A stretch of DNA of 64,000 bases from Chitinophagales bacterium 65-1. Its GTDB lineage: Bacteria; Bacteroidota; Bacteroidia; Chitinophagales; Chitinophagaceae. Below the pieces are notes generated by a model. That model saw only the letters and a list, made by a program, of their open reading frames with translations, was not told where the DNA came from and searched no databases. This document shows, one piece after another, positions 4,016 to 55,313 of the stretch (the stretch's first letter is position 1; each line of letters opens with the position of its first letter). A program made the translations under genes and the position numbers. The stretch is from assembly GCA_002050465.1 (NCBI GenBank), contig MWYX01000064.1, positions 1-64,000 on the forward strand, in the 5' to 3' direction.

Positions 4016-5902
4016 ATGCATTATGCTTCGGTTGAAAATATCAGTAAATCTTTTGGAATAAGAACGCTATTTAAGAATATTACCTTTTATGTGGAAGAAG
4101 GCGATAAAATTGCTTTTGTTGCCAGAAATGGTACAGGAAAATCTACATTATTAAAAATTATTGCAGGGTTGGATACAGTGGATAGCGGAACTGTATGGGT
4201 TCATAAAGAGGTAAAGGTTATTATGCTTCAACAGGATACGGTTTTTGATAATAATAAATCCATCTGGGATAATATTTTACGGATGGATAACCCCATTGTG
4301 AAAGTGGTTAAAGAATATGAGGTGTACTTAGAGAAAGGTGGTCACGATGAAAACAAATTGCATAAGCTTATAGATCAGCTAAGTGAATTGAATGCATGGA
4401 ATTTTGAAAGTGATCTTAAACAAATTTTAGGTAAGCTAAACCTCCATCATTTAAATGAACCGGTTAAAAACTTAAGTGGCGGACAAAGAAAGAGAGTTGC
4501 TCTTGCACAGGCATTGGTAGAATCACAGCTTCATGAAGGAAGATGTTTGTTGATATTGGATGAGCCTACCAACCATTTGGATGTTGAGATGATAGAATGG
4601 CTGGAAAATTTTCTTTCTACTCAAAAAAGCACTTTATTACTGGTAACCCATGACCGTTATTTTTTAGATACAGTTTGCAATGAGATTATTGAAATGGAAG
4701 ATGAAAAACTTTATGTGTATAGGGGGGATTATGATTATTTTTTAGAGCAAAAATCTTTGCGCCAGGAAGTACAACAAAGTGAATTACAAAAAGATAAAAA
4801 TATTTTCAGGAAAGAACTGGAGTGGATGCGTAAGCAGCCAAAGGCACGTACAACAAAATCAAAAAGCAGGCAGGATGCATTTGTTGATATCCAGGATAGG
4901 GTTAGCCGGCAAAAAGATGACCCGGAAATTTCATTACAGGTAAAGATGACAAGGCTTGGCGGAAAGGTGGTGGAGATGAAAAAGATTTATAAAAGCTATG
5001 GCGACAAACCGATAATGAAAGGTTTTGATTATACTTTTAAGAGAGGTGAACGGATAGGTATTGTTGGAAAGAATGGAGTTGGTAAATCTACCTTTTTGAA
5101 AATTGCATTGGGTAGTGAACCACCAGATAACGGAAAAATAAATCACGGCGATACTGTTGTATTTGGAAATTTTGCACAGGAAGGGTTACAATATAAAGAA
5201 GATAAAAGGGCAATTGAATATGTAAAAGATTTTGCCGAGTTTTTTCCTTTGGCTGATGGCAGTAAGATCAGCTCTACCCAATTCATGGAAAAATTTGGGT
5301 TTAATGCTCAGCAGCAATTTACACCATTGAGTAAACTTAGCGGCGGTGAAAAAAGAAGGCTTCATTTATTAAGTGTTTTGTTTCTCAACCCGAATTTTTT
5401 AATACTCGATGAGCCAACCAATGACCTCGATCTCCAAACATTAAGAACGCTGGAAGAATTTTTAAAAGATTTTCCCGGATGTATTTTAATTGTTAGTCAT
5501 GACCGTTATTTTATGGATAGAGTGGTTGACCACCTTTTTGCATTTGAAGGCGAAGGGGTTATAAAAGATTTTCCCGGCAATTATTCTGAATACAGGGAAT
5601 GGAAGGAAAGAGAAGAGACAAGTGACAAGTTAGAAGTCACCAAAGAAAGTTCATCTAAAACCCCCAACCCCCAAGCTACAAATAACAAACTGCAACATTC
5701 TTTTAAAGAGAAGTTTGAATTTGAAAAATTAGAGCAGGAAATGCCAGCACTGCAAAAAGAAAAAGTTAGTCTTGAAGAAAAAATGAATTCTGCAAATATT
5801 GGTTTTGATGAATTGCAAAAATCATCTGAAAGAATTAATGAAATTATAAAGCTTCTCGATGAAAAGGAAATGCGTTGGCTGGAATTGAGTGAGAGAATTT
5901 AA
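4016..5902 (+). CDS. ABC-F family ATPase (Uup-like)
   Basis: Two NBDs: GTGKSTLLKI/LSGGQRKRVALAQAL/LILDEPTNHLD and GVGKSTFLKI/LSGGEKRRLHLL/LILDEPTNDLD; C-terminal coiled coil. Confidence 0.9.
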   Translation: MHYASVENISKSFGIRTLFKNITFYVEEGDKIAFVARNGTGKSTLLKIIAGLDTVDSGTVWVHKEVKVIMLQQDTVFDNNKSIWDNILRMDNPIVKVVKEYEVYLEKGGHDENKLHKLIDQLSELNAWNFESDLKQILGKLNLHHLNEPVKNLSGGQRKRVALAQALVESQLHEGRCLLILDEPTNHLDVEMIEWLENFLSTQKSTLLLVTHDRYFLDTVCNEIIEMEDEKLYVYRGDYDYFLEQKSLRQEVQQSELQKDKNIFRKELEWMRKQPKARTTKSKSRQDAFVDIQDRVSRQKDDPEISLQVKMTRLGGKVVEMKKIYKSYGDKPIMKGFDYTFKRGERIGIVGKNGVGKSTFLKIALGSEPPDNGKINHGDTVVFGNFAQEGLQYKEDKRAIEYVKDFAEFFPLADGSKISSTQFMEKFGFNAQQQFTPLSKLSGGEKRRLHLLSVLFLNPNFLILDEPTNDLDLQTLRTLEEFLKDFPGCILIVSHDRYFMDRVVDHLFAFEGEGVIKDFPGNYSEYREWKEREETSDKLEVTKESSSKTPNPQATNNKLQHSFKEKFEFEKLEQEMPALQKEKVSLEEKMNSANIGFDELQKSSERINEIIKLLDEKEMRWLELSERI

Positions 5903-5928
5903 TTAACTTTCTTTTTTCAAACCTGCAT

Positions 5929-7104
5929 ATGAAAGAAAGATTTTATTCACTTGATGTGTTTCGGGGCGCCACAGTTGCATTAATGATACTGGTAAATAAT
6001 CCCGGTTCCTGGAGTCATATTTATTCGCCACTAAAACATGCACCCTGGCATGGCGCCACACCAACTGATCTTGTGTTCCCGTTCTTTTTATTTGCTGTAG
6101 GTAATGCATTGGCTTTTGTTATGCCAAGATTAGAAGCTGCAGGCGAAGGAGTTTTCTGGAGAAAAATTTTAAAAAGAACCTTTCTTATTTTTTTTATTGG
6201 CTTAATGCTTAACTGGTTTCCCTTTATAAAGTGGGAGAATGATGTTATAGCGTTTAAACCATGGGAATATATTGATGCCAATGGAAAGGCGCAGGGGGTA
6301 AGAATTTTAGGAGTGTTACAAAGAATTGCGCTTGCTTATTTTTTCGCATCTGTAATCATTCATTTTTTTAAAATAAGAGGTGCTTTTGTTGCTGCCGCAG
6401 TAATATTATTAGGTTATTGGTTTTTGTGTGTAGTCGGCAATCCTGCTGATCCCTTTAGTTTACAAGGCTGGTTTGGAACTTCTGTTGACAAAAATATTTT
6501 AGGCGATGCACACATGTATAAAGGCGAAGGAGTCGTTTTTGATCCTGAAGGATTAATGAGTTTGTTTGCAGCAATAGTACAGGTAATATTTGGATATTTT
6601 GCCGGAGATTATATTTTAAAAAAAGGCAAAACACATGAAATGGTTAACGGATTATTTGTTGCCGGTTGTGTATTGGCGCTGGCAGGACTTTGCTGGGGGA
6701 TGGTATTCCCGATCAACAAAAAAATATGGACAAGCTCTTATACAGTTTATACAACAGGGTTAGCGCTTCTAACACTATCAGTTTTCATCTATATAATTGA
6801 ATTTAAAAACTGGCGGGGTTGGTGGAGTAAGTTCTTTGATGTATTCGGGAAAAACCCTTTGTTCATTTTTGTTTTGAGTGGTGCATTGCCCAGATTGTTG
6901 GGGCTGATAAGAATTCCTAACGGAATAAATCCTGATGGCAAACAATTATATACAACCCCCTTCGGTTGGTTTTATGAGCATATTTGCAAACCCATTTCTT
7001 CCAATCTTAATAATGGCTCCTTATTGTATGCAGTTTCTATGATACTGATGTATTGGTTAATTGTATGGTTTATGGATAAGAAGAAGATTTATATAAGGGT
7101 ATAA
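5929..7104 (+). CDS. heparan-alpha-glucosaminide N-acetyltransferase-like (DUF1624/DUF5009) membrane protein
   Basis: RFYSLDVFRGATVALMILVNNPGSWSHIYSPLKHAPWHGATPTDLVFPFFLFAVG, multiple TM helices. Confidence 0.8.
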   Translation: MKERFYSLDVFRGATVALMILVNNPGSWSHIYSPLKHAPWHGATPTDLVFPFFLFAVGNALAFVMPRLEAAGEGVFWRKILKRTFLIFFIGLMLNWFPFIKWENDVIAFKPWEYIDANGKAQGVRILGVLQRIALAYFFASVIIHFFKIRGAFVAAAVILLGYWFLCVVGNPADPFSLQGWFGTSVDKNILGDAHMYKGEGVVFDPEGLMSLFAAIVQVIFGYFAGDYILKKGKTHEMVNGLFVAGCVLALAGLCWGMVFPINKKIWTSSYTVYTTGLALLTLSVFIYIIEFKNWRGWWSKFFDVFGKNPLFIFVLSGALPRLLGLIRIPNGINPDGKQLYTTPFGWFYEHICKPISSNLNNGSLLYAVSMILMYWLIVWFMDKKKIYIRV

Positions 7105-7180
7105 TTTGTTTATATCTTAGGCACATACCAATTAAATCTTTTATATTTTTAATCCATCCCATTGTTAACAAATACTTACT

Positions 7181-7672
7181 ATGCCCAACCTTTCCAAAAC
7201 GTTAATCAATACGCTTGATTTTCCAAACTCCGGCTATGCTGAAATAAGAACAGATGTTATCACTGATGACCGTTCTTTATTTGCTAAAAAAACATTTAAT
7301 AAAAATGTTGTTATCAGCGATTTTTATTGGACAGAAGTTTATGATAAGCCTACCCGTTTAACTGTTCAGATAGGAGAGCATCAGCACATTGAGCTTTTAC
7401 CAACCTACCTGGAATGTATTAATCATAGCTGTGATCCGAATTCTTTTTTTGATATCAAAAAAAAGCAGCTTGTTTGTATAAGACCGATTAATAAAGATGA
7501 AGAGATTACTTTTTTTTACCCATCAACAGAATGGGAAATGGATGCGCCCTTTAATTGCTGCTGTAATAGCCAATATTGCGTTGGCTACATTGCAGGTGCA
7601 AAATACCTTACCATAAACCAACAAAAACGTTACAGGTTCACCGAGCTTATTCAACAGAAACTTTCTAAGTAA
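7181..7672 (+). CDS. stand-alone SET-domain protein with post-SET-like Cys motif
   Basis: ECINHSCDPNSFFDIKK (NHSCxPN), DEEITFFYPSTEWEMDAPFNCCCNSQYC (CxCx4C post-SET). Confidence 0.8.
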   Translation: MPNLSKTLINTLDFPNSGYAEIRTDVITDDRSLFAKKTFNKNVVISDFYWTEVYDKPTRLTVQIGEHQHIELLPTYLECINHSCDPNSFFDIKKKQLVCIRPINKDEEITFFYPSTEWEMDAPFNCCCNSQYCVGYIAGAKYLTINQQKRYRFTELIQQKLSK

Positions 7673-7676
7673 AAAA

Positions 7677-8777
7677 ATGGGTTTCAAAAGAAATAAAGAT
7701 TTGTACAAGGTGTGGGTGTTTGCACCTTTTTTAGAAACCACTGATAATAATCTTAAATGTTATTATGATTATACGCAAAGCATATCAGAGTACACAAAAA
7801 TTTTTACAGAAATTGATTGCGACTGGGAATGGGTAAATATTACTCAGGATAACCTCGAAGCTGAGATCAAAAGAGTAAAGGCTCACTTCATCAAAAAAAA
7901 TATTGTTCTCAACCTTTGTGACGGAGATGAGCTAAATGGTTTACCGGGAATCTCTGTTATATATGCTTTGGAAAAAAATAATATTCTGTATACAGGAGCA
8001 GATGCTTATTTCTATGATATTACCACTTCTAAAATAAGTATGAAAAAAGCGTTTGACCTGGATAATGTATCTACCCCCAAATGGGTTTTGTTAAATGGAA
8101 GTGTTAATAAAAACGTCATGGAAAAACTGGGTGAATCAGCTATTGTAAAACCGGCAGTATCAGCAGGAAGTATGGGCCTGGGAATTAAGAATGTAGTAAG
8201 TAATTTTAGAGAAATGGAAAATGTTGTTGCTGATATAAGATTGGGATACAGGGGATGGAAACTTGATAACGAGGGTTTGATTGCAGAGGAGTTTATTAAA
8301 GGAAGGGAATTTACAACCTTTCTAATAGGCTCATCATCTATCCCTGCAAGTATTAAATTCTATCAACCTGTTGAAAGAGTATTTCATTCATCATTACCTG
8401 ATGAAGAACAATTTTTATCTTTTGACAGGCTTTGGGAAACGTATGATGAAGAAAGTCCAATGCCTGGCAATGAATATTTTTATCAGTACGCACCGGTAAA
8501 ATCTCCTGAATTAATCGAAGAATTACGATCTCTTAGTTTTCTTGCCTACATATCTGTGAAGGGAAACGGATATGCCCGGTTGGATTTCAGGATGGATAAA
8601 GAAACAAAATGTTTACAAGTTTTAGAAGTGAATGCTCAATGTGGTTTAAGTGAAGATGAAGACTATACTTCAATAGGAGCCATATTGCGTTTCAGTAACA
8701 AAAATTTTTCTGATATAATTTTTGAAATTTTAGATGATGCTTTGCTTCGTGAAAAAAAACCACTTATAGTACAATGA
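7677..8777 (+). CDS. ATP-grasp ligase, D-Ala-D-Ala-ligase-like
   Basis: NLCDGDELNGLPGISVIYALEKNNILYTGAD, AIVKPAVSAGSMGLGIKNV, LIAEEFIKGREFTTFL, GYARLDFRMDKETKCLQVLEVNAQCG. Confidence 0.8.
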   Translation: MGFKRNKDLYKVWVFAPFLETTDNNLKCYYDYTQSISEYTKIFTEIDCDWEWVNITQDNLEAEIKRVKAHFIKKNIVLNLCDGDELNGLPGISVIYALEKNNILYTGADAYFYDITTSKISMKKAFDLDNVSTPKWVLLNGSVNKNVMEKLGESAIVKPAVSAGSMGLGIKNVVSNFREMENVVADIRLGYRGWKLDNEGLIAEEFIKGREFTTFLIGSSSIPASIKFYQPVERVFHSSLPDEEQFLSFDRLWETYDEESPMPGNEYFYQYAPVKSPELIEELRSLSFLAYISVKGNGYARLDFRMDKETKCLQVLEVNAQCGLSEDEDYTSIGAILRFSNKNFSDIIFEILDDALLREKKPLIVQ

Positions 8778-10273
8778 AAATATGTGTTCTCCAACCTGAC
8801 TATTCAACGAGTAATGTAGATTATAAGAATTATGATCCGCCTCGTAATCTCTCAAAATTATTGCCTGATGATGAAGTGCATCATGTATTCTTAAATAAGT
8901 TAACTACTTACCGGCAACTCAAAAAACTAAGTAAGCAAGGATTTGATATATATATCAATTTATGCGAAGGATATTTAGATTGGTCTGTGCCTTCCATTGA
9001 TGTAATTCATTTTTTGGAGTTGCTTAATTTACCATATACAGGTCCTGATGCAACAATATATGATCCTTCCAAACCCTTGATGAAATATGTAGCGTATTGT
9101 GCCGGAGTAAAAACTCCAAATTATGTTGAAATGCGGGATAATAACAATATCGAAGCAACAATTCAACACCTCACATTTCCACTTTTTATAAAACCTGCGC
9201 ATGCAGGCGATAGTTTAGGAATTGATGAAAACTCACTCGTTCATAATTTGAATGATATAAAAAGTAAAATTAATTCTTTATTGAAGGAGGAATATGACGA
9301 CATATTGATAGAAGAATACATAGCAGGAAGAGAGTTCACTGTTCTTGTTGCAGCTAACCCGGCTTCTGACAAATCATGCAAAGTATTTAAGCCTGTTGAA
9401 TATGTTTTTTCAAATAATAAACAATTTAAAACGTATGCATTAAAAACATCCTGCCTGCATGCCGGTGCTAATGTGCCATGTGATAATAAATTGCTTGAAG
9501 AAAAACTAAAACAGGCTTCTGAAAAAATATTCACCGGGTTTTCCGGGGTTGGATATGCCCGGTTAGATTTTAGGTTAGATGCAAATGGTGAAATTTATTT
9601 CCTGGATATAAATTTTACATGTTCGGTTTTTTATGAAGATGGCTATGAAGGTTCAGCAGATTATATACTTAAATTCGACCCCATTGGTAAAACAGGATTT
9701 TTAAAAAATATCATAGATGAAGGAATAGCCAGACATGCCTCTAAACAAAAAAAATATATTCTTAAAGGAAATTCACTGGATGGGTATGGAATATTTGCAA
9801 AGCAGTTTATAAAAAAAGGTGAGATTATTTTTAAGCAGGAAACAAGTGCCCATCGTATTGTAACCAAACGATTTGTAGAAAATACCTGGGCACCTTACCA
9901 GGTTAAGGAATTTAAGAAATATGCTTATCCCATTTCTGATGAAGTATATATTCTATGGGATAATGATCCGCAGCAATGGGCTCCTCAAAATCATAGCTGT
10001 GATGCTAACACTGGCTATGATGGATTGAATTTAATTGCATTATGTAATATAAAAAATGAGGATGAATTGACATTGGATTATCAGGATCTTTTGGACGATA
10101 GAATGGATGCTTTTACATGTAAATGCGAGAGTAAAAATTGCCGGAAAAAAATTACTGGCACTCCTGGAAATTCAATTTCAGCAAAAGAGAAAGAAAAAAG
10201 GCTGATGCGATCAGGTAGATTAGTAAAAAAGAAATGGGTAAACCTCGTACCTGTTTTTGAAAATGGGAGGTAA
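8774..10273 (+). CDS. ATP-grasp ligase fused to C-terminal SET/post-SET domain
   Basis: N-term: FPLFIKPAHAGDSLGI, ILIEEYIAGREFTVLV, GYARLDFRLDANGEIYFLDIN; C-term: GNSLDGYGIFAKQFIKKGEIIF, APQNHSCDANTGYD, DELTLDYQDLLDD, FTCKCESKNC. Confidence 0.85.
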   Translation: MKICVLQPDYSTSNVDYKNYDPPRNLSKLLPDDEVHHVFLNKLTTYRQLKKLSKQGFDIYINLCEGYLDWSVPSIDVIHFLELLNLPYTGPDATIYDPSKPLMKYVAYCAGVKTPNYVEMRDNNNIEATIQHLTFPLFIKPAHAGDSLGIDENSLVHNLNDIKSKINSLLKEEYDDILIEEYIAGREFTVLVAANPASDKSCKVFKPVEYVFSNNKQFKTYALKTSCLHAGANVPCDNKLLEEKLKQASEKIFTGFSGVGYARLDFRLDANGEIYFLDINFTCSVFYEDGYEGSADYILKFDPIGKTGFLKNIIDEGIARHASKQKKYILKGNSLDGYGIFAKQFIKKGEIIFKQETSAHRIVTKRFVENTWAPYQVKEFKKYAYPISDEVYILWDNDPQQWAPQNHSCDANTGYDGLNLIALCNIKNEDELTLDYQDLLDDRMDAFTCKCESKNCRKKITGTPGNSISAKEKEKRLMRSGRLVKKKWVNLVPVFENGR

Positions 10274-10372
10274 AATATCTAACAAACAAGTCTCAAATTC
10301 AGCCTAATAAAAGTTGGTTACAGTTATTGTTTGTATTTCATTACTGATCTCAATCAATAACCCTGATTAGTT

Positions 10373-11530
10373 TCATATTATTATCTTATGTGTCCCATCC
10401 CCAATCTTCACATCAATCACTTCCGCGTCTATCTGAAATTTCTTTTTATAAGCAGCTGTTGCATCAGCTAAAAAGCCTTGCACACTTTCTGTTTTTATAA
10501 TATTAATGGTGCAACCACCAAAACCACCACCCATCATTCTTGAGCCAATAACATCTTTATTTTCCCGGGCTTTTTCAACAAGAAAATCCAATTCTTTACA
10601 ACTCACTTCATATAGCTTGCTCAAGCCTTCATGCGTGGCAAACATGAGCTTTCCAAATTCAGTTAAATTATCTTCTTTTAAAAGCTTTGCAGCTTCCTGT
10701 GTTCTTAAAATTTCTTCAACTACGTACTTACAACGATCATAAACTTTCGCATCCATTTTATCTTTAAATGGTAATAATTCATCTAAGCTTTTTATATCCC
10801 TGAAAGAATTAATTCCTTTTTCTTTTTTTAATATCTCCAATCCTTTTTCACATTCTTTTCTTCTAATATTATATTCTGATGAAGCAAGTGAATGGTGAAC
10901 TTTAGTATTGATAAGCACAATTTCATATCCTTCTAATTTCAGAGGAAAATATTGGTGTTCAATACTTTTACAATCCAGTAAAATCACATTATCCTTTTTC
11001 CCGAACATATTTGCATATTGGTCCATAATGCCACACATCACTCCCGGAAAATTATGCTCAGCACGCTGACAAAGCAATGCCAGTTCTTTTCTATCCAATC
11101 CAAAATTAAAAAGCTCGTTAATACCAAATGCAAGTCCGCCTTCTACAGCAGCAGAAGAAGAAATACCAGCGCCATCTGCAATATCACCGCCGAAAACGCA
11201 ATCAAAACCCGCCACCTCTTTTTTTAATAATAAAAATTCATTCACAACACCCAATACATAATTCTTCCAGCCGGTCATTTTTTTAATATCACTGATCTTA
11301 ATAGAAAGCTTCTCATTAAAATCTACTGAATGAAAATTTATAACATCAGTATTATTTATTGCAATAGCATAATAAATTCCTTTGTTAATTGCCGCTGGCA
11401 TTACAAAGCCATCATTATAATCAATGTGTTCGCCAATAAAATTTATTCTGCCGGGAGAAAAGTATAGATTGGGAGTAGAAGTAAAATTTTCTTTAAAAAT
11501 ATCCCTGACTATTTTAGAAACTGTATTCAT
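10373..11530 (-). CDS. galK: galactokinase
   Basis: SPGRINFIGEHIDYNDGFVMPAAI, GAGISSSAA, RMMGGGFGGCTINII (GHMP kinase motifs). Confidence 0.93.
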   Translation of the reverse strand: MNTVSKIVRDIFKENFTSTPNLYFSPGRINFIGEHIDYNDGFVMPAAINKGIYYAIAINNTDVINFHSVDFNEKLSIKISDIKKMTGWKNYVLGVVNEFLLLKKEVAGFDCVFGGDIADGAGISSSAAVEGGLAFGINELFNFGLDRKELALLCQRAEHNFPGVMCGIMDQYANMFGKKDNVILLDCKSIEHQYFPLKLEGYEIVLINTKVHHSLASSEYNIRRKECEKGLEILKKEKGINSFRDIKSLDELLPFKDKMDAKVYDRCKYVVEEILRTQEAAKLLKEDNLTEFGKLMFATHEGLSKLYEVSCKELDFLVEKARENKDVIGSRMMGGGFGGCTINIIKTESVQGFLADATAAYKKKFQIDAEVIDVKIGDGTHKIII

Positions 11531-11534
11531 GCAT

Positions 11535-12491
11535 CTAAGTTATTAAAGTGATCTTATAAGATGTTTTAAAGTTCGCAGATTCACCGGGCTGTAATGTTTT
11601 CAAACCCATACCATTATTAAAGGCATCCGGAGCCCCGCTTATATTTTCAATAGCAATACTGTTTCTATGCGATGGCGTATACAATTGCAAATAAGGATAT
11701 GATTCATCGGTATGAATTTCTATCTCTATATTTTTTTCGCTATTCTGTAATAAGCATATTGGCTGCCCTTCAGAAAAATTTAGCGTAAAGCAATTATCAA
11801 AAAAAGTATCGCCAAGTTCTTTCAATTTATCAAATTCTTTATAGGGAATTAATTTTCCGGTAGGTAGCAGTTCGTCATTAAATTCAACCATTTCAAACGA
11901 TCTGAATTGCAACTTCAGATCATCGATCTTTGCATCCAGCGTAAAATAGGGATGCCAGCCATCCTGTAAAGGAATTGAAACCTCATCTTTATTGGTAATC
12001 TGTGTAAATACATTTAACCTGCTATGTTTTTCAAGTTCATAGGTTATAATACAAGCGTAATTAAAAGGATAACCCTGGTCAGCAGCCCTGTATTCATGCA
12101 TCATTGAAACTGCCGCACTATTTTTGTTGGACTGTCTGGCAGTTACTTTAAAAGGCTGGTCATACAGCATACCGTGTAATGCGTTATTCCTGTCGTAATA
12201 TTTTTCAATCGTAAACTCTCTTCCTTCAAAATTATATTTGCCTTTGTTTATCCTGCAAACAAAAGGTGAAAGTTTAGTTCCCAGAAATCCTTTAGAGGTT
12301 ACATTCTTTTCAAAATCTTCAGCATTATCATAACTTTCTATCACATTAAATTCTTTACCATCTTTAATAATTGTAAACGCATGTAACATAGCTGAACAGG
12401 AAGGGATGATTTCTGCAAAAGTTCCATTTCCTTCATCTTTTAATACGACCTTATCAAAACCATTTTCTGATTTATTTTGAATACTAAACAT
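11535..12491 (-). CDS. aldose 1-epimerase family protein
   Basis: FVCRINKGKYNFEGREFTIEKYYDRNNALHGMLYDQPF, DGWHPYFTLD; adjacent to galK. Confidence 0.8.
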   Translation of the reverse strand: MFSIQNKSENGFDKVVLKDEGNGTFAEIIPSCSAMLHAFTIIKDGKEFNVIESYDNAEDFEKNVTSKGFLGTKLSPFVCRINKGKYNFEGREFTIEKYYDRNNALHGMLYDQPFKVTARQSNKNSAAVSMMHEYRAADQGYPFNYACIITYELEKHSRLNVFTQITNKDEVSIPLQDGWHPYFTLDAKIDDLKLQFRSFEMVEFNDELLPTGKLIPYKEFDKLKELGDTFFDNCFTLNFSEGQPICLLQNSEKNIEIEIHTDESYPYLQLYTPSHRNSIAIENISGAPDAFNNGMGLKTLQPGESANFKTSYKITLIT

Positions 12492-17826: not shown

Positions 17827-18687
17827 TTAAATATCAGAAAGGTAAAAAGTGTCTTTGCTTCTTATTCCCTTTTCTGTTAATTGCAGGGTACAGCATTCAA
17901 TTAAAGGATCGTGTTCAAAAAATAAAATGTAATCTTTTTGATGGGCTTCCGTTAGAAATGATTTTTTTTCCTGTAATGTTTGTAAAGGTTGTGTATCGTA
18001 AGCCATAATGTATGGCACAGGTATATGTGCAACTGATGGAAGCAAATCCGCCATATAAACAATTGTTTTTCCATTATAATTTAGTTGGGGCAACATCATT
18101 GCTTCAGTATGACCATTCATAAACCGAACCGCAATATTTTCTGAGTAGGAAATACCATCTTTTACTTCAATGAATTTTAATTTACCACTCTGTTCAATTG
18201 GCAAAATATTTTCTTTAAGAAAACTGGCTTTCTCCCTGTCATTTGGATTAGCAGCCCATTCCCAATGAACTTCATTGCTCCAATAAGTTGCATTTTTAAA
18301 AGCCGGAACTAATTTACCTGCCTGTCCGGCAGGCAGGTCTCCCTTTTTTTCAATGGAGCCGCCACAATGATCAAAATGCAGGTGAGTAAGAAAAACATCG
18401 GTTACATCATCTTTACTAAAACCATTTTTTTCCAGTGATCCATCAAGGGTATCCTCTCCGTGTAAATAATAATGACCAAAAAATTTTTCATCCTGCTTAT
18501 CTCCCATCCCGTTATCAACTAAAATCAATCGTTCGCCATCTTCAATTAATAAACAACGCATGGCCCAGCTGCACATATTATTTTCATCAGGCGGATTTAA
18601 TTTTTGCCACATGCTTTTTGGAACAACTCCAAACATGGCACCCCCATCAAGTTTAAAATATCCTGTATTTATTGAATACAATTTCAT
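17827..18687 (-). CDS. MBL-fold metallo-hydrolase (lactonase-like)
   Basis: HLHFDHCGG (HxHxDH), DNGMGDK, NGHTEAMMLPQL. Confidence 0.88.
   Translation of the reverse strand: MKLYSINTGYFKLDGGAMFGVVPKSMWQKLNPPDENNMCSWAMRCLLIEDGERLILVDNGMGDKQDEKFFGHYYLHGEDTLDGSLEKNGFSKDDVTDVFLTHLHFDHCGGSIEKKGDLPAGQAGKLVPAFKNATYWSNEVHWEWAANPNDREKASFLKENILPIEQSGKLKFIEVKDGISYSENIAVRFMNGHTEAMMLPQLNYNGKTIVYMADLLPSVAHIPVPYIMAYDTQPLQTLQEKKSFLTEAHQKDYILFFEHDPLIECCTLQLTEKGIRSKDTFYLSDI
18316..18338. repeat. 23-bp palindromic element ACCTGCCTG-TCCGG-CAGGCAGGT inside MBL hydrolase gene
   Basis: 9-bp perfect inverted arms; encodes LPAGQAG in frame. Confidence 0.7.
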
Positions 18688-20105
18688 GCTATAGCTGTCT
18701 TCTTTTTTGGATCAACAAACAATAATAAAATACCTCCGATGATAAAAAATATCATAAGCGCTAAAACCGAATTTCCCATGCCGCCATAAAATTCAGCAAC
18801 ATAACCAAAAGATAATGTTCCTATCACTGTCCCCACTTTATCACATACATCATAAAAGCTAAAGTATGATGCAGTGTCTTTAGTAGGTGGCAAGAGCTTT
18901 GAATAGGTAGAGCGTGACATAGATTGAATTCCCCCCATCACCAATCCTACTATGGTTGCAACAATATAAAACTCGTAGCTGATAGGGGTTTGGATCGGTT
19001 TCATCTGCTCTCTTACAATTCCAATTTGTTTATTTATTTCTTCCCTGGAAATATTTGGAACATCTCTTTGTTTTTCTAATACGGTAATTTTTTCGGTAAA
19101 TGGTTTTAAAACTTTAGCCTGTTTGGAAATTGCAAATGCTGAAATGCATACAACAATCCAGACACAGATAATTACTCCCAACGTGAAAATATTATTTGTT
19201 CGCTTTGATAATCTGGCAAACATAGTAGCACCTGCTATTGCCACCAGTTGAATGATGAGAATAGTAATAATTAATTGAGAAGTTTCCAGCTTTAGCTCTT
19301 CTGCTGCAAAATAGCTCGACAGATACATTACAGTTTGTACCCCCATATTATAAAAAAAGAAACTTCTTAAAAATCTTTTTGTAACCGGGTATTCGCGTAA
19401 TTGTTGCCATACTTTTTTTAATTCATAAAAACCGTTTACAAAAATATTTTTCTCAGGACGTTGTTTAGATGCTATTGACCGCGGAAGGTTTTTAAATGTT
19501 ATCTGTGCAAAGCCTGCCCACCACAAGCCTACTGCCAGAAAAGATAAACGGGTAGGCCAGGCCCCTAATCCCCAATGCATTGCATCATTAAGCATAATGG
19601 CAGCGAGGCAAATGATCATTAGAATTACGCTGCCAACATAGCCTGTTGCAAATCCTTTTGCACTTATCCTGTCCTGATCTTCTTCCGAAGCTATCTCCGG
19701 TAAGTACGCATTATAAAAAACAATGCTGCCGCAAAAACCAATGGAGCCAAATACGGAGCAAATAATACCAAATGAAATATTATCTCTGGTAAGAAAACTT
19801 AATCCAATGCAGGCTGCGGAGCCGAGGTAACAAAAGAATTGCATAAAGGCCTTTTTATTTCCTTTATAATCAGCAATTGAAGAAAGAATAGGAGAAAGGA
19901 TTGCAATTATCAAAAATGAAAATGAAATTGAGTACGATGCAAGAGCAGCCCGGTCAAAAGTCCGCCCTATAAAATCAACCTTTGCAGGTGCAATAGCAGA
20001 ATAATATGCCGGAAATATCGCTGAAACTATAACGAGTGAATACGCACTGTTTGCCCAGTCGTACATGGTCCATCCTCTTATAACATTTTTTGGAGCAGTT
20101 TGCAT
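18684..20105 (-). CDS. MFS transporter, UMF1/Atg22-like
   Basis: GWTMYDWANSAYSLVIVSAIFPAYY, about 12 TM; MGGIQSMSRSTYSKLLPP. Confidence 0.85.
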   Translation of the reverse strand: MQTAPKNVIRGWTMYDWANSAYSLVIVSAIFPAYYSAIAPAKVDFIGRTFDRAALASYSISFSFLIIAILSPILSSIADYKGNKKAFMQFFCYLGSAACIGLSFLTRDNISFGIICSVFGSIGFCGSIVFYNAYLPEIASEEDQDRISAKGFATGYVGSVILMIICLAAIMLNDAMHWGLGAWPTRLSFLAVGLWWAGFAQITFKNLPRSIASKQRPEKNIFVNGFYELKKVWQQLREYPVTKRFLRSFFFYNMGVQTVMYLSSYFAAEELKLETSQLIITILIIQLVAIAGATMFARLSKRTNNIFTLGVIICVWIVVCISAFAISKQAKVLKPFTEKITVLEKQRDVPNISREEINKQIGIVREQMKPIQTPISYEFYIVATIVGLVMGGIQSMSRSTYSKLLPPTKDTASYFSFYDVCDKVGTVIGTLSFGYVAEFYGGMGNSVLALMIFFIIGGILLLFVDPKKKTAIA

Positions 20106-20175
20106 TGTTGGTTAAATGAATATTGAAAATAGCGAAAAAATTATCACTATTATTAATCCAGCTTATTATACAGCT

Positions 20176-20970
20176 TTAAGATTTTAGCCATCCTGAATAA
20201 ATTAATATCAACAGTACTATACCCACAATTATTCGATAGACCCCCCACACCCTAAAGCCATACTTCTGTAAAAATGTAATAAAAAATTTTATAGCCAGCA
20301 GTGCAACAACAAAAGCTACAATATTTCCAATGCTCAATAATTTTATTTCGTCTGAAGTAAATGATCCGTTTTCTTTACTATGCATGTATAATTTATACAC
20401 CGTAGCAGCAAGCATGGTAGGCACTGCTAAAAAAAATGAGAATTCTGCAGCTGCATTCCTGGTAAGCTTTTGCTGCATACCGCCAATTATTGATGCGGCA
20501 CTTCTGCTAATACCCGGTATCATGGCAAGGCATTGCCATATGCCGATAATAAAGGCATTTACAAAGGATATTTCATTTTCATTATGGATATGAGGCCGTT
20601 TATAAGCTTTATCGATAAATATCAAAATAATTCCCCCCGCAAGCATTGCTATTGCAACAGTTAAAGAGCTATCAAGCAATGCATCAATTTTTTTTGAAAA
20701 TAAAAAACCAATTATTAATGCGGGTAATACCGCTACAGCAAGCTTTGCATAAAATTTCCATTGAGAGAAATTAAAAAACTTTTTATAATAAAGAACTACA
20801 ACAGCTAAAATTGCTCCTAACTGTATTGCAACTGTAAAAACCTTGGTAAATGCATCATCATGCGTTTGTAATAATTTTTCAGCAATGATCATATGACCGG
20901 TGGAAGAAATGGGAATAAATTCCGTTATTCCTTCAACAATAGCTATAATGATTGATTCAGTAATGGTCAT
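20176..20970 (-). CDS. uppP: undecaprenyl-diphosphate phosphatase
   Basis: IVEGITEFIPISSTGHMIIAE, GIWQCLAMIPGISRSAASIIGG. Confidence 0.95.
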   Translation of the reverse strand: MTITESIIIAIVEGITEFIPISSTGHMIIAEKLLQTHDDAFTKVFTVAIQLGAILAVVVLYYKKFFNFSQWKFYAKLAVAVLPALIIGFLFSKKIDALLDSSLTVAIAMLAGGIILIFIDKAYKRPHIHNENEISFVNAFIIGIWQCLAMIPGISRSAASIIGGMQQKLTRNAAAEFSFFLAVPTMLAATVYKLYMHSKENGSFTSDEIKLLSIGNIVAFVVALLAIKFFITFLQKYGFRVWGVYRIIVGIVLLILIYSGWLKS

Positions 20971-20989
20971 CTAAGTGATTGAATGTGCA

Positions 20990-21021
20990 ACATAAAAAAA
21001 GGCGATGAATAAATCATCGCC
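20990..21021 (-). terminator. Rho-independent terminator (minus strand)
   Basis: GGCGATGA-ATAAA-TCATCGCC hairpin with T-tract on the minus strand after the DUF3098 gene. Confidence 0.7.
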
Positions 21022-21043
21022 AAACATATTATCTTAAAAAAAA

Positions 21044-21340
21044 TTATTCAGGCTTCTTCATTATAGCAAATATTTCAATAATAAGGCCGGCAATAATTAA
21101 TATAGGGGCAATAGTGATCCGGGTTGTACTATACACGTCCTTATCCTGAAAAACATTGGGATCACTGCTTTTACCACCTGCCATCAAAAAAAATCCAATG
21201 GCCATTACCACAAGGCCTATAAGCATCCACTTGTAATTCTCTCTGCCAAATAATTGTGCGGATGGTGACTGAGTAACTGCTTTTTCTTTAGTGGTTACGG
21301 GCATCGCAGTTTTTTTATTTTGGGTTTTTGTATTTGCCAT
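21044..21340 (-). CDS. DUF3098 family membrane protein
   Basis: YKWMLIGLVVMAIGFFLMAGGKSSDPNVF..., two TM; next to ftsX as is typical in Bacteroidota. Confidence 0.75.
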   Translation of the reverse strand: MANTKTQNKKTAMPVTTKEKAVTQSPSAQLFGRENYKWMLIGLVVMAIGFFLMAGGKSSDPNVFQDKDVYSTTRITIAPILIIAGLIIEIFAIMKKPE

Positions 21341-21356
21341 AATTTATATTTCAATA

Positions 21357-22235
21357 TTAATAAAGATCATCCAGTTTCATTTTTAAATATTTGAGAACAG
21401 AGCGATGCGTACTGAACAGTGAGATCAGTAATCCTAATACTACCATAACCATAAATAGAAAAAGCATGCTACTGTTATCATGAAGTACCTTAAAGTAAGG
21501 CACAAGTTTTTCTGCTACAGCAATAAAAGCAATCATAAGTACAATAGCAATTCCTGCCGCTATCAATCCATTGATGATTGCTCTTATATTTAATGGCCGT
21601 GCAATAAAACTTCTTGTTGCACCTACCATTTGCATGGTTTTTATTAAGAACCGGTTGCTATACATTGCAAGCCGTATGGTATTATCAATAGAAATAATTA
21701 CAAGGATAGAAAGTATAATTGCGATAATAAGAATCCATATTGCAGCCGTTTTTACAAATTTACTCACATAGGTAACTGTATCAGTAGGATATTGAAATTC
21801 TGAAATAACATTCTGATAATTATTTGTTAGATAATTACCAAGATTGGCAAGGCTATCCTGTTGCATATAGTCAGCCTTTACAAAAAAGTCTATGCTTTCA
21901 GGAAGTGGATTATTGTCTAAAAATTTTCTCCAGGTGGTATCATTTTGCGCATTCCATTTTTCTACAGCCTTTTCTCTTGTAACATATTCAACATCTTTTG
22001 CGTAAGGCAGGGAACTTATATAATTTTTTACAGTATCAATTTGTTTTTTTGTTGCCGTTCTTTCAATCCATGCATGTACCTGGATGCTCTCTTTAAAATA
22101 TTCTCCTGTTTTGCGGATATTTAAAAATATCCAACCTACAATGCCAAATAAAAATAAAACCAGCGCTACTCCTATTATTGCATATATGTAAGATGGTTTT
22201 CCACGCTTTGCAGATGCTTTACCAAATTGAGCCAT
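21357..22235 (-). CDS. ftsX: cell-division ABC transporter permease FtsX
   Basis: ESIQVHAWIERTATKKQIDTVKNYISSLPYAKDVEYVTREKAVEKW, C-terminal FtsX TM domain. Confidence 0.85.
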   Translation of the reverse strand: MAQFGKASAKRGKPSYIYAIIGVALVLFLFGIVGWIFLNIRKTGEYFKESIQVHAWIERTATKKQIDTVKNYISSLPYAKDVEYVTREKAVEKWNAQNDTTWRKFLDNNPLPESIDFFVKADYMQQDSLANLGNYLTNNYQNVISEFQYPTDTVTYVSKFVKTAAIWILIIAIILSILVIISIDNTIRLAMYSNRFLIKTMQMVGATRSFIARPLNIRAIINGLIAAGIAIVLMIAFIAVAEKLVPYFKVLHDNSSMLFLFMVMVVLGLLISLFSTHRSVLKYLKMKLDDLY

Positions 22236-22490
22236 TAGTTTACGATTATGATTATGTAAGGTGCCGGCAAAAATAATTGTTTTTACAGACGTTTAGTATT
22301 TTTGTGGTTACATTGTATTGCTAATATATTTTAGTTAATCCAGTGATTGGTGATTTAAGAAAGTTGAATAACATTTCTTTCACAAATTTTTTTTGGTAGC
22401 CCGCATTTGTTTTTCATAGCATCATCGTGAAGTTTATCCAGAGCTTGACGAAGGATCACTCACTTGTACCGCATACCATTATGGAACAGT

Positions 22491-25376
22491 ATGGAATATA
22501 ATTTCAGACATATAGAAAAGAAATGGCAGCAAAGATGGAAAGAAGCGGATGCTTATAAAGTAAGGAATCATTCTTCCAAACCTAAATGCTATGTGCTGGA
22601 TATGTTTCCTTATCCCAGTGGAGCAGGCTTACATGTGGGTCACCCCCTTGGATATATTGCCAGTGATATTTATGCAAGGTATAAGCGCCTGAAAGGGTTT
22701 AATGTACTGCATCCTATGGGTTATGACAGTTTTGGATTACCTGCAGAACAATATGCTTTGGAAACGGGACAACATCCTGCAGTTACTACAGAAAATAATA
22801 TAAATACTTTTCGTGAGCAACTGGATAATATTGGTTTTTCTTTTGACTGGAGCAGGGAGATACGAACCAGCGATCCGAAATATTATAAATGGACTCAATG
22901 GATATTTCTGCAATTGTTCAATAGTTATTTCTGTAACACAGAAAAGAAAGCATTACCAATATCAAAACTCATAAATAAATATGCCACTAAAGGAAATAAA
23001 GATTTTACTCCTGAACAATGGTATGCATATTCAGAAAAAGAGAAAGAAGATATATTAATGAAGCGTCGGTTGGCATACTTAGCTTATGGTGAAGTGAACT
23101 GGTGTGAGGCACTGGGAACAGTTTTAGCTAATGATGAAGTGATCAATGGAGTAAGTGAACGTGGCGGGCATCCGGTTGTAAAAAAGAAAATGCATCAATG
23201 GTATTTACGGATAACCGACTATGCCGAAAGATTGTTGCAAGGTTTGGAAACAGTGGAATTCAGTGATGCAATGAAAGAAATGCAAAGGAACTGGATCGGG
23301 AAGAGTGAGGGAGCTGAGATCAGCTTCGAGCTTCGAGCTAATAGCCATGAGCAAAGACACAGCTCACAGCTCAGGGCTCACAGCTCAAGGCTTGGCGTTT
23401 ACACTACCCGACCAGATACCATCTTCGGCGTTGACTTTATGGTACTTGCGCCAGAACATGAATTGGTGCAACAAATAACAACCTCTGAACAAAAAGAAGA
23501 AATTGAAAAATATCTTGATTATGCAAAAAGCCGTAGCGAAAGAGAGAGGCTAGCAGAAGTAAAACAAATAACGGGTGCCTTTACCGGCGCTTATGCAGTA
23601 AACCCTTTTAATGGAAAAGAGATCCCGATCTGGATATCTGAATATGTATTAGCTGGCTATGGTACAGGAGCAATCATGGCTGTGCCTTGCGGTGATCAGC
23701 GTGATTTTAATTTTGCAAAGCATTTTAATATTCTCATCACAAATATAATTGGTGAACATTTTAACGGTGAAGAAGCCAATCCCACTAAAGATGCTATTCT
23801 TACCAATTCGGATTTTTTAAATGGGATGTTAATGAAAGATGCTATTTCTGTAGTAAATAATAAATTGGAAGAACTTGGAATAGGTAAAAGAAAAATAAAT
23901 TATAAGATGAGAGATGCAGGTTTCAGCCGCCAGCGATATTGGGGTGAACCGTTTCCTATATTTTATAAGGGTGGTATTGCTTATCCTGTTGATGAAAAAG
24001 AATTACCGGTTGAATTACCGCATGTGGAAAATTACAAACCCGGTCCGGAAGGAGAAGGACCATTGGCTAATATTACTGACTGGGTTAATTTAAATGATGG
24101 CTCAACAAGAGAAACAAATACAATGCCCGGCTATGCAGGTTCATCGTGGTATTTTTTAAGATATATGGATTCGGATAATGATAAAGCATTTGCTGATAAA
24201 AAAGCAACAGATTACTGGAACCAAGTGGATGTGTATGTTGGCGGAACGGAGCATGCAGTCGGGCATTTACTCTACAGCCGCATGTGGACAAAAGTTTTAT
24301 TTGATTTAGGGTATATAAATTTTGATGAACCATTTAGAAAGTTGGTGAATCAAGGAATGATACAGGGAAGCAGCAGATTTGTATATAGATTAGATTATTA
24401 CAAACTTGATTTGATTAAAGATTTATCGGAAGGACATCAACTTTTTCTTTCAAAAAAAATTAAAGAAAAATTGCCTTCTGATGAATCAAGAATTTTGATA
24501 AACCAAGCTTTAGGAATCCATTCAGAAAGTAAAAATATTACTTGGCAAATTGCTGAACTTCATGTTGATGTAAATCTTGTTGATGGAGTTGAATTAGACA
24601 TTGATGCATTTAGGAAATGGAAAAACGGAGAATATGCAAATGCAACATTTATTTTAGAAGATGGAAAATACATCTGTGGTGTAGAAACAGAAAAAATGTC
24701 AAAATCAAAATACAACACGGTTAACCCTGATGTATTAATAGAAAAATACGGCGCCGATACCTTCCGGATGTATGAAATGTTCTTGGGGCCGGTTGAAGCA
24801 AGCAAGCCATGGGATACCAAAGGAATTGAAGGTGTTCACCGCTTTTTAAAAAAATTATGGCGTTTATTTTTTGATGAGCAAAAAGGTAAAGTCTGGACTG
24901 AAGACAAAGCCACCGATGCCGAATTAAAAGTACTGCATAAAACCATTAAAAAAATTGAAGAAGACACAGAAAGATTTTCATATAACACGGCAGTAAGTGC
25001 ATTTATGGTTTGTGTAAATGAACTGCATGATCTAAAATGCCATAAAAAAGAAATTTTAGAACCACTCCTGATCTTATTAACGCCTTATGCTCCGCATATT
25101 ACAGAAGAATTGTGGAATCAATTAGGAAATAAAGAAAGCATCCTGGATGCTCCGTTTCCAAAGTTTGAATCAAAATATTTAATTGAGTCCACAAAAGAAT
25201 ATCCCATTTCAATAAATGGTAAATTGCGTACTACTATTAATATAGCATTAAATGCTTCTCAGGAAGAAGTTGAAAATATTGTTCTTAATAATGAGGTAAT
25301 AAAAAAATGGATTGATAGTAAAGCGCCAAAGAAAATTATTTATGTAAAAAATAAGATGGTAAATGTGGTTATATAA
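22491..25376 (+). CDS. leuS: leucyl-tRNA synthetase
   Basis: DMFPYPSGAGLHVGHPLGYIASD, VYTTRPDTIFG, GGTEHAVGHLLYSRMW, EKMSKSKYNTVNPD. Confidence 0.96.
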   Translation: MEYNFRHIEKKWQQRWKEADAYKVRNHSSKPKCYVLDMFPYPSGAGLHVGHPLGYIASDIYARYKRLKGFNVLHPMGYDSFGLPAEQYALETGQHPAVTTENNINTFREQLDNIGFSFDWSREIRTSDPKYYKWTQWIFLQLFNSYFCNTEKKALPISKLINKYATKGNKDFTPEQWYAYSEKEKEDILMKRRLAYLAYGEVNWCEALGTVLANDEVINGVSERGGHPVVKKKMHQWYLRITDYAERLLQGLETVEFSDAMKEMQRNWIGKSEGAEISFELRANSHEQRHSSQLRAHSSRLGVYTTRPDTIFGVDFMVLAPEHELVQQITTSEQKEEIEKYLDYAKSRSERERLAEVKQITGAFTGAYAVNPFNGKEIPIWISEYVLAGYGTGAIMAVPCGDQRDFNFAKHFNILITNIIGEHFNGEEANPTKDAILTNSDFLNGMLMKDAISVVNNKLEELGIGKRKINYKMRDAGFSRQRYWGEPFPIFYKGGIAYPVDEKELPVELPHVENYKPGPEGEGPLANITDWVNLNDGSTRETNTMPGYAGSSWYFLRYMDSDNDKAFADKKATDYWNQVDVYVGGTEHAVGHLLYSRMWTKVLFDLGYINFDEPFRKLVNQGMIQGSSRFVYRLDYYKLDLIKDLSEGHQLFLSKKIKEKLPSDESRILINQALGIHSESKNITWQIAELHVDVNLVDGVELDIDAFRKWKNGEYANATFILEDGKYICGVETEKMSKSKYNTVNPDVLIEKYGADTFRMYEMFLGPVEASKPWDTKGIEGVHRFLKKLWRLFFDEQKGKVWTEDKATDAELKVLHKTIKKIEEDTERFSYNTAVSAFMVCVNELHDLKCHKKEILEPLLILLTPYAPHITEELWNQLGNKESILDAPFPKFESKYLIESTKEYPISINGKLRTTINIALNASQEEVENIVLNNEVIKKWIDSKAPKKIIYVKNKMVNVVI
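23322..23393. repeat. AGCTCACAGCTC-type low-complexity repeat inserted in frame in leuS
   Basis: agcttcgagcttcgagctaatagccatgagc...agctcacagctcagggctcacagctcaaggct. Confidence 0.65.
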
Positions 25377-51027: not shown

Positions 51028-52308
51028 TTATCCCTGAAAACTATCTGCAGCCTTTATTGTTTCATCCAGGTTCTCATAAGTTAATGCATTGCTCAAAAAC
51101 CAGCTTTCATATGCTGAGGGTGGTAAGTAAACTCCATGCTCAAGCATATGGTGAAAAAATTTATTAAAAAGTGGAATATCAGCTTTGGATGCAGTTTCGA
51201 AATCTGTTATATCATGATCACAAAAGTGAATGCTTATCATACTGCCCAGACTGTTAATCCGATGCTTAATTCCTTTTTTATTAAAAACTTCAGGCAGGCC
51301 TTTTTTCAGATAGCTGCACTTTTCATCCAACTCTTTGTATATGCCAGGGTTATTCTTTAATTCTGTTAGCATGGTATAACCCGCAATCATAGCTATGGGA
51401 TTGCCACTTAAAGTTCCCGCCTGGTAAACATTTCCTAAAGGAGAAATGTGCTCCATAATTTTTCTCCTACCGCCGAAAGCTCCCACCGGTAATCCGCCTC
51501 CAATTACTTTTCCATATGTAACCAGGTCTGCATCAATATTTAGTTTTTCCTGTGCACCGCCTAATGACAATCTAAAACCTGTCATTACTTCGTCAAAAAT
51601 AAAAATAATATTTTCCTCATCACAAATTTTTCTAAGTCCTTCTAAATAATTTTTTTGCGGAAGAATACATCCCATATTTCCCGCAACCGGTTCGATAATT
51701 ACGGCTGCGATTTCATTTTTATTTTCTTCAACAAGTTTTTTTACTGCTTCCAAATTATTGTAAGGAGCTGTTAAGGTATCTACAGAAACACCTGCAGTAA
51801 CTCCGGGCATTGTTTGAATATTTAATGTTGCTACACCGCTACCTGCTTTTACTAAAAAAGAATCTGCATGCCCATGGTAACAACCTTCAAACTTAATGAT
51901 CTTATTTTTTCCTGTATAACCTCTTGCCAATCTTATTGCGCTCATGCAGGCTTCAGTGCCACTACTAACCATTCTTATCAGATCAACATTCGGCACCATA
52001 CTTTTTATTAATTCTGCCATTTCAATTTCCAAAAGGGTAGGAGCACCAAAAGAGGTTGAATCAAGCGCTTTTTCCTGAATTGCTTTTACCACTGGATCAT
52101 AGGCGTGACCTAATATCATAGGGCCCCATGAATTGATATAATCGATATATTTATTTCCATCCTCATCTAGCAGGTATGCTCCCTTTGCTGACTTTATAAA
52201 TACAGGTGTGCCGCCTACACTTTTAAATGCCCGGACAGGAGAATTAACTCCGCCAGGAATTGATTGCTTGGCTCTTTCAAAAAGTTCGTTGCTGTTATTA
52301 TTATTCAT
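51028..52308 (-). CDS. hemL: glutamate-1-semialdehyde 2,1-aminomutase
   Basis: [58 protein letters not shown]. Confidence 0.97.
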
Positions 52309-52313
52309 GAAGA

Positions 52314-53291
52314 CTAATGATTTATTAACCTTACTGCATCTTTTGCAAAGTAAGTAGCTATCAAATCTGCACCTGATCTTTTCATTGAAGTAAGGGTTTC
52401 AAGAATGGCTTTCTCCTCGTCTATCCAACCCATTTTCGATGCTGCTTTTATCATTGCATATTCACCACTGATGTTATAACAACTTACCGGCACATCAACT
52501 GCATCTTTCACTTCACGAATCACATCTAAGTAACTTAAAGCAGGTTTAACCATAACTATATCTGCTCCTTCTTCCACATCCATTACTGCTTCCCTAATGG
52601 CCTCTATGCGATTGCTGTAATCCATCTGGTAAGTTTTTTTATCTCCAAAACCGGGAGCAGAATCTAACGCATCTCTGAATGGGCCATAAAAGCAGGAAGC
52701 ATATTTTGCACTGTACGCCATGATGCCTGTCTTTGTAAAATTATTCTCTTCCAAGGCCTTTCTTATTGCACCAATTCTTCCGTCCATCATATCACTTGGT
52801 GCAACAAAATCAGCACCAGCCTGGGCATGACTCACACTCATCTTTGCCAACACTTCCACTGTTGCATCATTTACAATTTCTCCATTTTCCACAATTCCAT
52901 CATGCCCATAAGATGAAAATGGGTCCAGCGCAACATCAGTCATAATTATCATTTCCGGGCAAGCATCTTTAATTGCTTTAATGCTGCGTTGCATTAAGCC
53001 ATCAGGGTTTAAAGCTTCAGTGCCTTTATTATCTTTTAATTCATCTTTAGATTTTACAAATAGCAGAATGCTTTTTATGCCAATGCCCCATAGTTCTTTA
53101 ACTTCTTTTACTGTTACGTCAGTACTCATTCTAAAATAGTTTGACATAGAAGAAATTTCCTCCCGTTGATTTTCTCCTTCAACAATAAAAAGCGGAGCAA
53201 TAAAATCATTAGAAGTTAAAATTGTTTCCGCAATCAAACTTCTTATTGCAGAGCTGCTTCTTAATATTCTGTTTCTTCTTTGTAAATACAT
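52314..53291 (-). CDS. hemB: porphobilinogen synthase
   Basis: [51 protein letters not shown]. Confidence 0.97.
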
Positions 53292-53314
53292 ACTACTAAA
53301 TTAAAATGTAAAAT

Positions 53315-54226
53315 TTAATTGATCCAGTCTATTGGATGTAAACAAACCTGTAACAATTTATCCTCTTCACTTCCAGGCTCTGGCTGATAATTATATTCAA
53401 ATCTTACAGTTGGTGGAAGGCTCATTAATATACTTTCTGTTCGGCCGTTTGTTTTTAAACCGAATAATGTTCCCCTGTCGTGAATAAGATTAAACTCAAC
53501 ATACCTTCCTCTTCTTATTTCCTGCCAGTGTTTTTGTTTTTCTCCGAACGGCACATCTTTTCTTCTTATCACAATCGGCAAATATGCATTTAAGAAACAA
53601 TTGGCATTAGCTTGCTGAAAAGCAAACAGGCGTTCTGCATCTTCTTCGTCCTTTGGTCGTTGATAATCGTAAAATACGCCACCAATTCCCCGGGCCTCAT
53701 TATTGCGGTGGTTATTTACAAAATATTCATCGCAATTTTTTTTGAATAAAGCATATAATTCTTCTCCATAATGATCAATGGCTTTTTTTAAACTGCTGTG
53801 AAAATGTTTTGCATCTTCTTCAAATAAATAATATGGAGTAAGATCAGAGCCGCCACCAAACCAGCTATCTATCCTGGTTCCACCAGCATCATATAATTCA
53901 AAATAACGCCAGTTTGCATGCACCGTTGGTGCATAAGGATTTTTTGGATGAAGAACCAGAGAAATACCCGCCGCAAAAAACTTGCTTTCGCTAACATTGA
54001 ATGCCTGTTGCATTGTTTCAGGCAATCTTCCAAAAACCTTTGAAGTATTTACTCCCCCTTTTTCAAAAATATTTCCATTTGAAATGATTCGGGATATTCC
54101 GCCACCACCTTCTTCTCTTTTCCATTCGTCGTTAAGAAATTTTTCTCCATCTAATTCTTCTAAAGCGATACAAATATCATTTTGTAAAGTCTTAATAAAT
54201 TCTATCCAATTTTGTTTGATACTCAT
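53315..54226 (-). CDS. hemF: oxygen-dependent coproporphyrinogen III oxidase
   Basis: HPKNPYAPTVHANWRYFE, WFGGGSDLTPYYLFEEDAKHFH, RRGRYVEFNLIHDRGTLFGLKTNGRTESILMSLPP. Confidence 0.97.
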   Translation of the reverse strand: MSIKQNWIEFIKTLQNDICIALEELDGEKFLNDEWKREEGGGGISRIISNGNIFEKGGVNTSKVFGRLPETMQQAFNVSESKFFAAGISLVLHPKNPYAPTVHANWRYFELYDAGGTRIDSWFGGGSDLTPYYLFEEDAKHFHSSLKKAIDHYGEELYALFKKNCDEYFVNNHRNNEARGIGGVFYDYQRPKDEEDAERLFAFQQANANCFLNAYLPIVIRRKDVPFGEKQKHWQEIRRGRYVEFNLIHDRGTLFGLKTNGRTESILMSLPPTVRFEYNYQPEPGSEEDKLLQVCLHPIDWIN

Positions 54227-54286
54227 ATTCTTTTTTGAACATCAATAAATATTTCCCATTAATCCTCTAATCTCATAAATCATGGT

Positions 54287-55312: not shown

Positions 55313-55313
55313 G

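Follow-up and report, generated by a model that had tools for sequence, protein, structure and literature searches.

The window, a 64,000-nt stretch of DNA, is contig C51 of a 1.96-Mb metagenome-assembled genome (MAG) that is 79.5% complete and whose closest relatives belong to Bacteroidota. It contains an operon of three plus-strand open reading frames (ORFs), encoding a free SET/post-SET protein, an ATP-grasp ligase of the Ddl superfamily (GRA), and a second ATP-grasp ligase fused to a SET domain (Table 1). The three co-directional genes, the 4-nt gap between the first and the second, and the 4-nt ATGA overlap between the second and the third agree to the base with the original prediction for this DNA, whose coordinates coincide with the limits of the conserved unit. 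The flanking genes, ABC-F and HGSNAT-like on the upstream side and galK on the downstream side, are outside the unit.

Table 1. Genes and domains of the SET/ATP-grasp operon (positions in the window)
Feature	Position	Strand	Basis and remarks
Free SET/post-SET methyltransferase, BurB-like, 163 aa	7181..7672	+	PF00856, 4.8e-8; predicted SAM-dependent methylation of a small molecule
GRA, Ddl-superfamily ATP-grasp ligase, 366 aa	7677..8777	+	Pfam Dala_Dala_lig_C, 1.1e-10
ATP-grasp::SET fusion, 499 aa	8774..10273	+	Start within the GRA stop codon (ATGA)
Fusion, ATP-grasp half, residues ~1-325	8774..9748	+	Pfam Dala_Dala_lig_C, 5e-22; Ddl fold
Fusion, SET and post-SET half, residues ~337-463	9782..10162	+	Pfam SET, 4.6e-9, match at 9782-10084

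Pfam matches and AlphaFold models with Ddl folds confirmed the domains that had been assigned to the three proteins (SET, Ddl-like ATP-grasp, and ATP-grasp fused to SET). The free protein has a SET class V fold with post-SET zinc cysteines; these cysteines (C84, C126, C128, and C133) and the catalytic tyrosine (Y113) are invariant among 16 homologues. The SET half of the fusion was modelled with lower confidence (AlphaFold pLDDT, about 55 to 90). Its post-SET cysteines (C409, C449, C451, and C456) and catalytic tyrosine (Y436) are invariant among 22 homologues, and its NHSC and CxCx4C motifs are likewise invariant in the homologue alignment.

Elsewhere in the window, positions 51028 to 59448 hold a compact haem biosynthesis cluster with hemL, hemB, hemF, hemE, hemD, hemC, hemA, and hemH-like ORFs (named by eye).

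Both ligases have a Ddl fold and score far under the Ddl cut-off

The AlphaFold model of GRA (pLDDT, 87.5) has a Ddl fold, with TM scores of 0.77 to 0.81 to the best Ddl structures in a fold search, and the model of the N-terminal half of the fusion has a Ddl fold likewise. Among proteins of solved structure, those nearest to both are Ddl and Van ligases. Homologue alignments identified invariant residues in GRA (K119, K123, K158, S165, R301, D303, E317, and N319) and in the ATP-grasp half of the fusion (K100, K104, K140, S147, R263, D265, and N280). On the strength of established knowledge of Ddl, we take these to include the lysines that bind ATP, the residues that coordinate Mg, and the arginine that binds the carboxylate. 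Both proteins thus share with the Ddl/Van superfamily its fold, its ATP- and Mg-binding residues, and the arginine for the acceptor carboxylate. They differ from that superfamily as follows. First, both fall far under the curated Ddl cut-off (NCBIfam TIGR01205, 245.65 bits), with 57 bits for GRA and 90 bits for the fusion. Second, GRA has an extra, unusually long conserved loop above the active site (about residues 225 to 268). Third, the fusion bears a C-terminal SET domain. The host genome carries a separate true Ddl (281 bits) elsewhere, indicating that neither GRA nor the fusion is the cell-wall ligase, and we rejected a housekeeping Ddl identity for this reason.

Because the same pairing of domains is present once split and once fused, the original prediction had invoked duplication. 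Our comparisons do not support that idea. GRA and the ATP-grasp half of the fusion are only about 28% identical, and a profile of the fusion scored unrelated Ddl-like ligases at 110 to 120 bits versus 108 bits for GRA; moreover, the free SET groups with the methyltransferase BurB, apart from the fusion SET. Judged by their sequences, the two ATP-grasps may have a common ancestor, with other Ddl-like ligases about equally close.

Several matches to the ligases were set aside. Ignavibacteria-like matches at 110 to 120 bits are different ligases, mostly encoded beside a C39-like peptidase. Loci L110 to L120 encode stand-alone Ddl-like ATP-grasp proteins (about 350 aa) from several other Bacteroidota families, most of them with a C39-like peptidase gene (assigned by eye); this ligase/peptidase pair is a separate, uncharacterised one. 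We also rejected the Neorhizobium matches (L033 and L034), L033 being an ordinary ddl gene.

The free SET protein is closest to BurB among solved proteins

Most familiar as histone methyltransferases, SET enzymes include BurB and MSMT as metabolic exceptions. A profile of the free SET family matched BurB (PDB 9l4t) at 7.7e-18 versus 3.3e-8 for the best histone SET, making BurB the nearest among solved proteins. Over about 108 aligned residues, identity to BurB is 28 to 37% for the free SETs (31% for that of the window), versus 14% for the generic SET protein of the host. Two motifs, [TS]-x-Q-x5-H and Y-x-[ST]-[TA]-E, are common to the free SETs and BurB and are missing from the fusion SET and the generic SET. 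In a tree of 42 rows with a midpoint root only, the free SETs and BurB grouped together, apart from the fusion SETs; support for this was moderate (95/59). We conclude that by profile, motifs, and tree the free SET belongs to the same SET class V subfamily as BurB/MSMT of the DMSP and malleicyprol pathways, and that its sequence resembles BurB more closely than it does histone or generic SET enzymes. It also shares with BurB/MSMT the form of a stand-alone protein of about 165 to 170 aa.

BurB shares 35% identity with MSMT, which has the same function (PMC7496086), and it converts free L-methionine to S-methylmethionine (SMM) in vitro (PMC7496086; PMC12542666). Since BurB contacts methionine via the main chain only (PMC12542666), the substrate of its relatives cannot be fixed from sequence. 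Methylation of lysine side chains, the activity originally assumed for the SET proteins of this operon, is weakened as a model, since the solved protein nearest to the free SET is a free-methionine S-methyltransferase.

The genomic setting differs from that of BurB/MSMT: the free SET gene adjoins genes for Ddl-type ATP-grasp ligases rather than a burI/burD/burE set. Among the recurring neighbours at all system loci examined, we detected no burI-, burD-, or burE-like genes (SMM decarboxylase, transaminase, and dehydrogenase, respectively), and hence the product is not simply DMSP.

Two loci from Pseudomonadota contain related proteins. At L096 (8116-9988), 35 nt separate a gene whose SET product is related to the free SET (104 bits) from a gene for an ornithine/DAP-type PLP decarboxylase, the sole such pair among 48 genomes of its class; its resemblance to the BurB-BurI pair is suggestive, as an analogy from a single case. 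At L098 (995-9340), a BurB orthologue (62% identity over about 108 residues) is encoded directly after a 2591-aa NRPS-looking ORF (by eye).

Gene order is conserved across two phyla

We found the fusion in Bacteroidota (Chitinophagaceae and Cyclobacteriaceae), green sulfur bacteria, and Gemmatimonadota. When species genomes were scanned, 29 loci with full or near-full relatives of the fusion emerged (55 to 73% identity). The original prediction had called for a search for such fusions and their neighbourhoods. GRA lies directly upstream of the fusion at every one of the 27 loci (of 29) whose contig extends that far, and 18 loci of the same set have a free SET gene either adjoining or no more than about 4 kb away. 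The fusion scored above 430 bits in 15 of 297 sampled Bacteroidota genomes. At a looser cut-off it was detected in 16 of 151 Gemmatimonadota genomes, 13 of them above 620 bits, and GRA was upstream of the fusion at the Gemmatimonadota loci that we read. The distribution is patchy even within one genus, where the system is present in 6 of 20 genomes.

Eight of the 15 fusion-carrying genomes in the Bacteroidota sample belong to one genus with the FMO protein (checked in four of the eight), the mark of green sulfur bacteria. In all eight, about 60 nt at most separate a free SET gene from the fusion match, and no GRA was found in these green sulfur bacteria. Hence, GRA is not needed everywhere. 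Downstream, the two green sulfur loci that we read at length continue with genes for a full ABC exporter and for another small SET protein. This third SET protein is very short (118 to 120 aa; L058 11756-12112 and L059 4836-5198) and is encoded beside the exporter, giving three SET domains per cluster.

An ABC_membrane_3 protein (PF13748), which has no ATPase domain (NBD) of its own, is encoded downstream of the fusion at 13 loci in two phyla, and the order GRA-fusion-membrane protein-SET is common to L060 (Bacteroidota) and L086 (Gemmatimonadota). No gene for this ABC-type membrane protein was found in the window's own genome, a MAG that is 79.5% complete. The parts list of the original prediction was right about the three genes and overlooked an accessory transporter gene, which is absent from the window.

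At L057 (G214:C3:391000-409000), positions 4041 to 12099 encode a divergent fusion (450 bits) beside an FGase (N-formylglutamate amidohydrolase), a MATCAP-type peptidase, a glutathione-synthetase-like ATP-grasp protein, and a gamma-glutamyltranspeptidase; here the same ligase::SET protein may be wired differently. Two further loci, L025 and L027, come from MAGs titled Sphingomonadales. Their neighbourhoods match that of the Chitinophagaceae locus L022, and the record names are probably wrong, the organisms being of Sphingobacteriales type.

The free SET gene co-occurs with the fusion even without linkage

We searched 36 fusion-positive and 44 fusion-negative genomes with profiles of the free SET. 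It was present in 27 of the 36 and in none of the 44 (Fisher P = 6e-14; because the genomes are related rather than independent, the Fisher values make the case look stronger than it is). For the genus to which the window belongs, the free SET was found in 4/6 fusion-positive versus 0/10 fusion-negative genomes (P = 0.008, too optimistic for related genomes), and in other genera of the family in 6/6 versus 0/17. For Gemmatimonadota the counts were 8/14 versus 0/12 (P = 0.002, again too optimistic for related genomes). No true GRA was detected in any of the 44 fusion-negative genomes. Two of the nine fusion genomes that lack a free SET (G298 and G308) are incomplete MAGs with the fusion on a very short contig; no BurB-like SET was detectable in G214 or in three divergent Gemmatimonadota, all of which carry the fusion.

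In several genomes the free SET gene is present yet unlinked to the fusion: in G293 (1.7 Mb away), G211, G354, and seven Gemmatimonadota, in places on another contig. Co-occurrence without linkage is hard to ascribe to hitch-hiking and suggests a shared pathway, and chance is excluded by the conservation of gene order across two phyla together with the co-occurrence. The functional coupling originally proposed for the free SET, GRA, and the fusion has strong support.

A block of genes encoding MFS, UppP-like, FtsX-like, and LeuRS proteins at positions 18684 to 25376 of the window recurs in G293 (L128 2-6796), where the unlinked free SET gene comes immediately after the LeuRS gene.

Proposed pathway and alternatives

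We propose that the operon is a small-molecule biosynthetic unit, rather than a protein-lysine or chromatin system, that would methylate an amino acid, ligate it, methylate a second time, and sometimes export the product. We give this proposal about an even chance of being right. It draws on the domains, the intact catalytic residues, the conserved linkage, and the co-occurrence without linkage, from which we infer all of the catalytic steps; the transporter-type genes next to the operon at some loci lend it further support.

In the first step, the free BurB-like SET would use SAM to methylate a free amino acid. Our first candidate, put forward tentatively, is the conversion of L-methionine to SMM; another amino acid or N-methylation is possible, and 31% identity to BurB would leave room for a different substrate. 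GRA and the ATP-grasp half of the fusion would next activate a carboxylate as an acyl phosphate and couple it to an amine, yielding a di- or tripeptide with the methylated residue in it. The SET domain tethered to the fusion would then methylate the bound substrate or product, which in our proposal is the reason for its attachment to a ligase. In some hosts, the product would finally cross the membrane via the linked ABC-type membrane protein; green sulfur bacteria would use the full ABC exporter instead. The minimal core, to judge from green sulfur bacteria, seems to consist of the free SET and the fusion, to which GRA would add one more ligation elsewhere.

A pathway of the same type could also run on nitrogen, with SETs that N-methylate a basic amino acid (lysine, ornithine, arginine, or histidine) and ligases that build a betaine-like peptide, e.g., an osmolyte. 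The lysine nitrogen is the classical target of SET enzymes, and the profile of the fusion SET scored BurB and histone SETs about equally (45 versus 44 bits). In addition, the conserved acidic residues D327 and E328 near the acceptor site of GRA could hold a cation. However, the free SET is clearly closer to BurB, an S-methyltransferase, than to any structurally solved N-methyltransferase, and we consider N-methylation unlikely.

The original prediction had suggested a methylated amino-acid or peptide metabolite, a general idea that our proposal retains, or else a protein modified by both ligation and methylation. In the latter case, the ATP-grasps would tag a protein with an amino acid or peptide and the SETs would methylate its lysines. 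ATP-grasp enzymes of other families (RimK and TTL) do tag proteins, but both ligases here are of the Ddl type, which acts on free amino acids, and the free SET is BurB-like. Moreover, we found no conserved substrate gene or small ORF nearby, in agreement with the earlier remark that no classical substrate gene is adjacent. We regard protein modification as distinctly improbable.

Still less probable is a cell-wall branch in which altered D-Ala-D-X dipeptides are made for peptidoglycan and adjusted by the methyltransferases. The kinship of both ligases with Ddl and Van enzymes would suit such a role; against it are the true Ddl elsewhere in the genome, scores far under every Ddl/Van cut-off, and the finding that mur, vanH, and vanX genes are not recurrent beside the system. 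The patchiness within one genus is also at odds with a structural function. Finally, we give almost no credence to a cassette of RiPP-like or defence type whose precursor or target went unrecognised, an idea that would fit that patchiness, given that no precursor peptide was conserved beside the operon (and hence next to an ATP-grasp gene, as in RiPPs of the graspetide kind) at the 41 loci searched, where the small-ORF families lay inside flanking genes or were limited to close relatives, that no PADLOC model for anti-phage defence matched, and that a plasmid search gave no match.

Relation to known systems

By kind, the operon that we read as a small-molecule biosynthetic unit is an ATP-grasp peptide-ligase cluster; its novelty is the SET tailoring and the fusion. 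Like the amidoligase clusters that build small peptides with ATP-grasp enzymes, it unites two ATP-grasp ligases and a tailoring enzyme, often with a transporter, in one operon. Unlike them, it has SET-class methyltransferases for tailoring, one of which is fused to a ligase. A search of open-access full-text literature found no paper on a bacterial SET protein with an ATP-grasp enzyme, in line with the original view of the system as undescribed; subscription journals are mostly outside the scope of that search, and such an absence is no proof.

A SET domain fused to a peptide ligase would, if this second metabolic role is real, broaden the range of the SET fold in bacteria. Given the sampled distribution (15/297 Bacteroidota and 16/151 Gemmatimonadota genomes), many lineages may produce an undetected compound, possibly a sulfonium with relevance to the sulfur cycle. 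More speculatively, the products could form a new metabolite class, widespread in Bacteroidota, green sulfur bacteria, and Gemmatimonadota: peptides with a sulfonium (SMM) or other methylated residue, made by SET enzymes and tethered Ddl-type ligases and often exported.

The eukaryotic protein TTLL12 resembles the fusion in joining SET-like and ATP-grasp-type (TTL-like) domains in a single chain; it is reported to catalyse neither histone methylation nor tubulin ligation (PMC3520985). Its ligase domain is of the TTL type, in contrast to the Ddl-type domain of the bacterial fusion.
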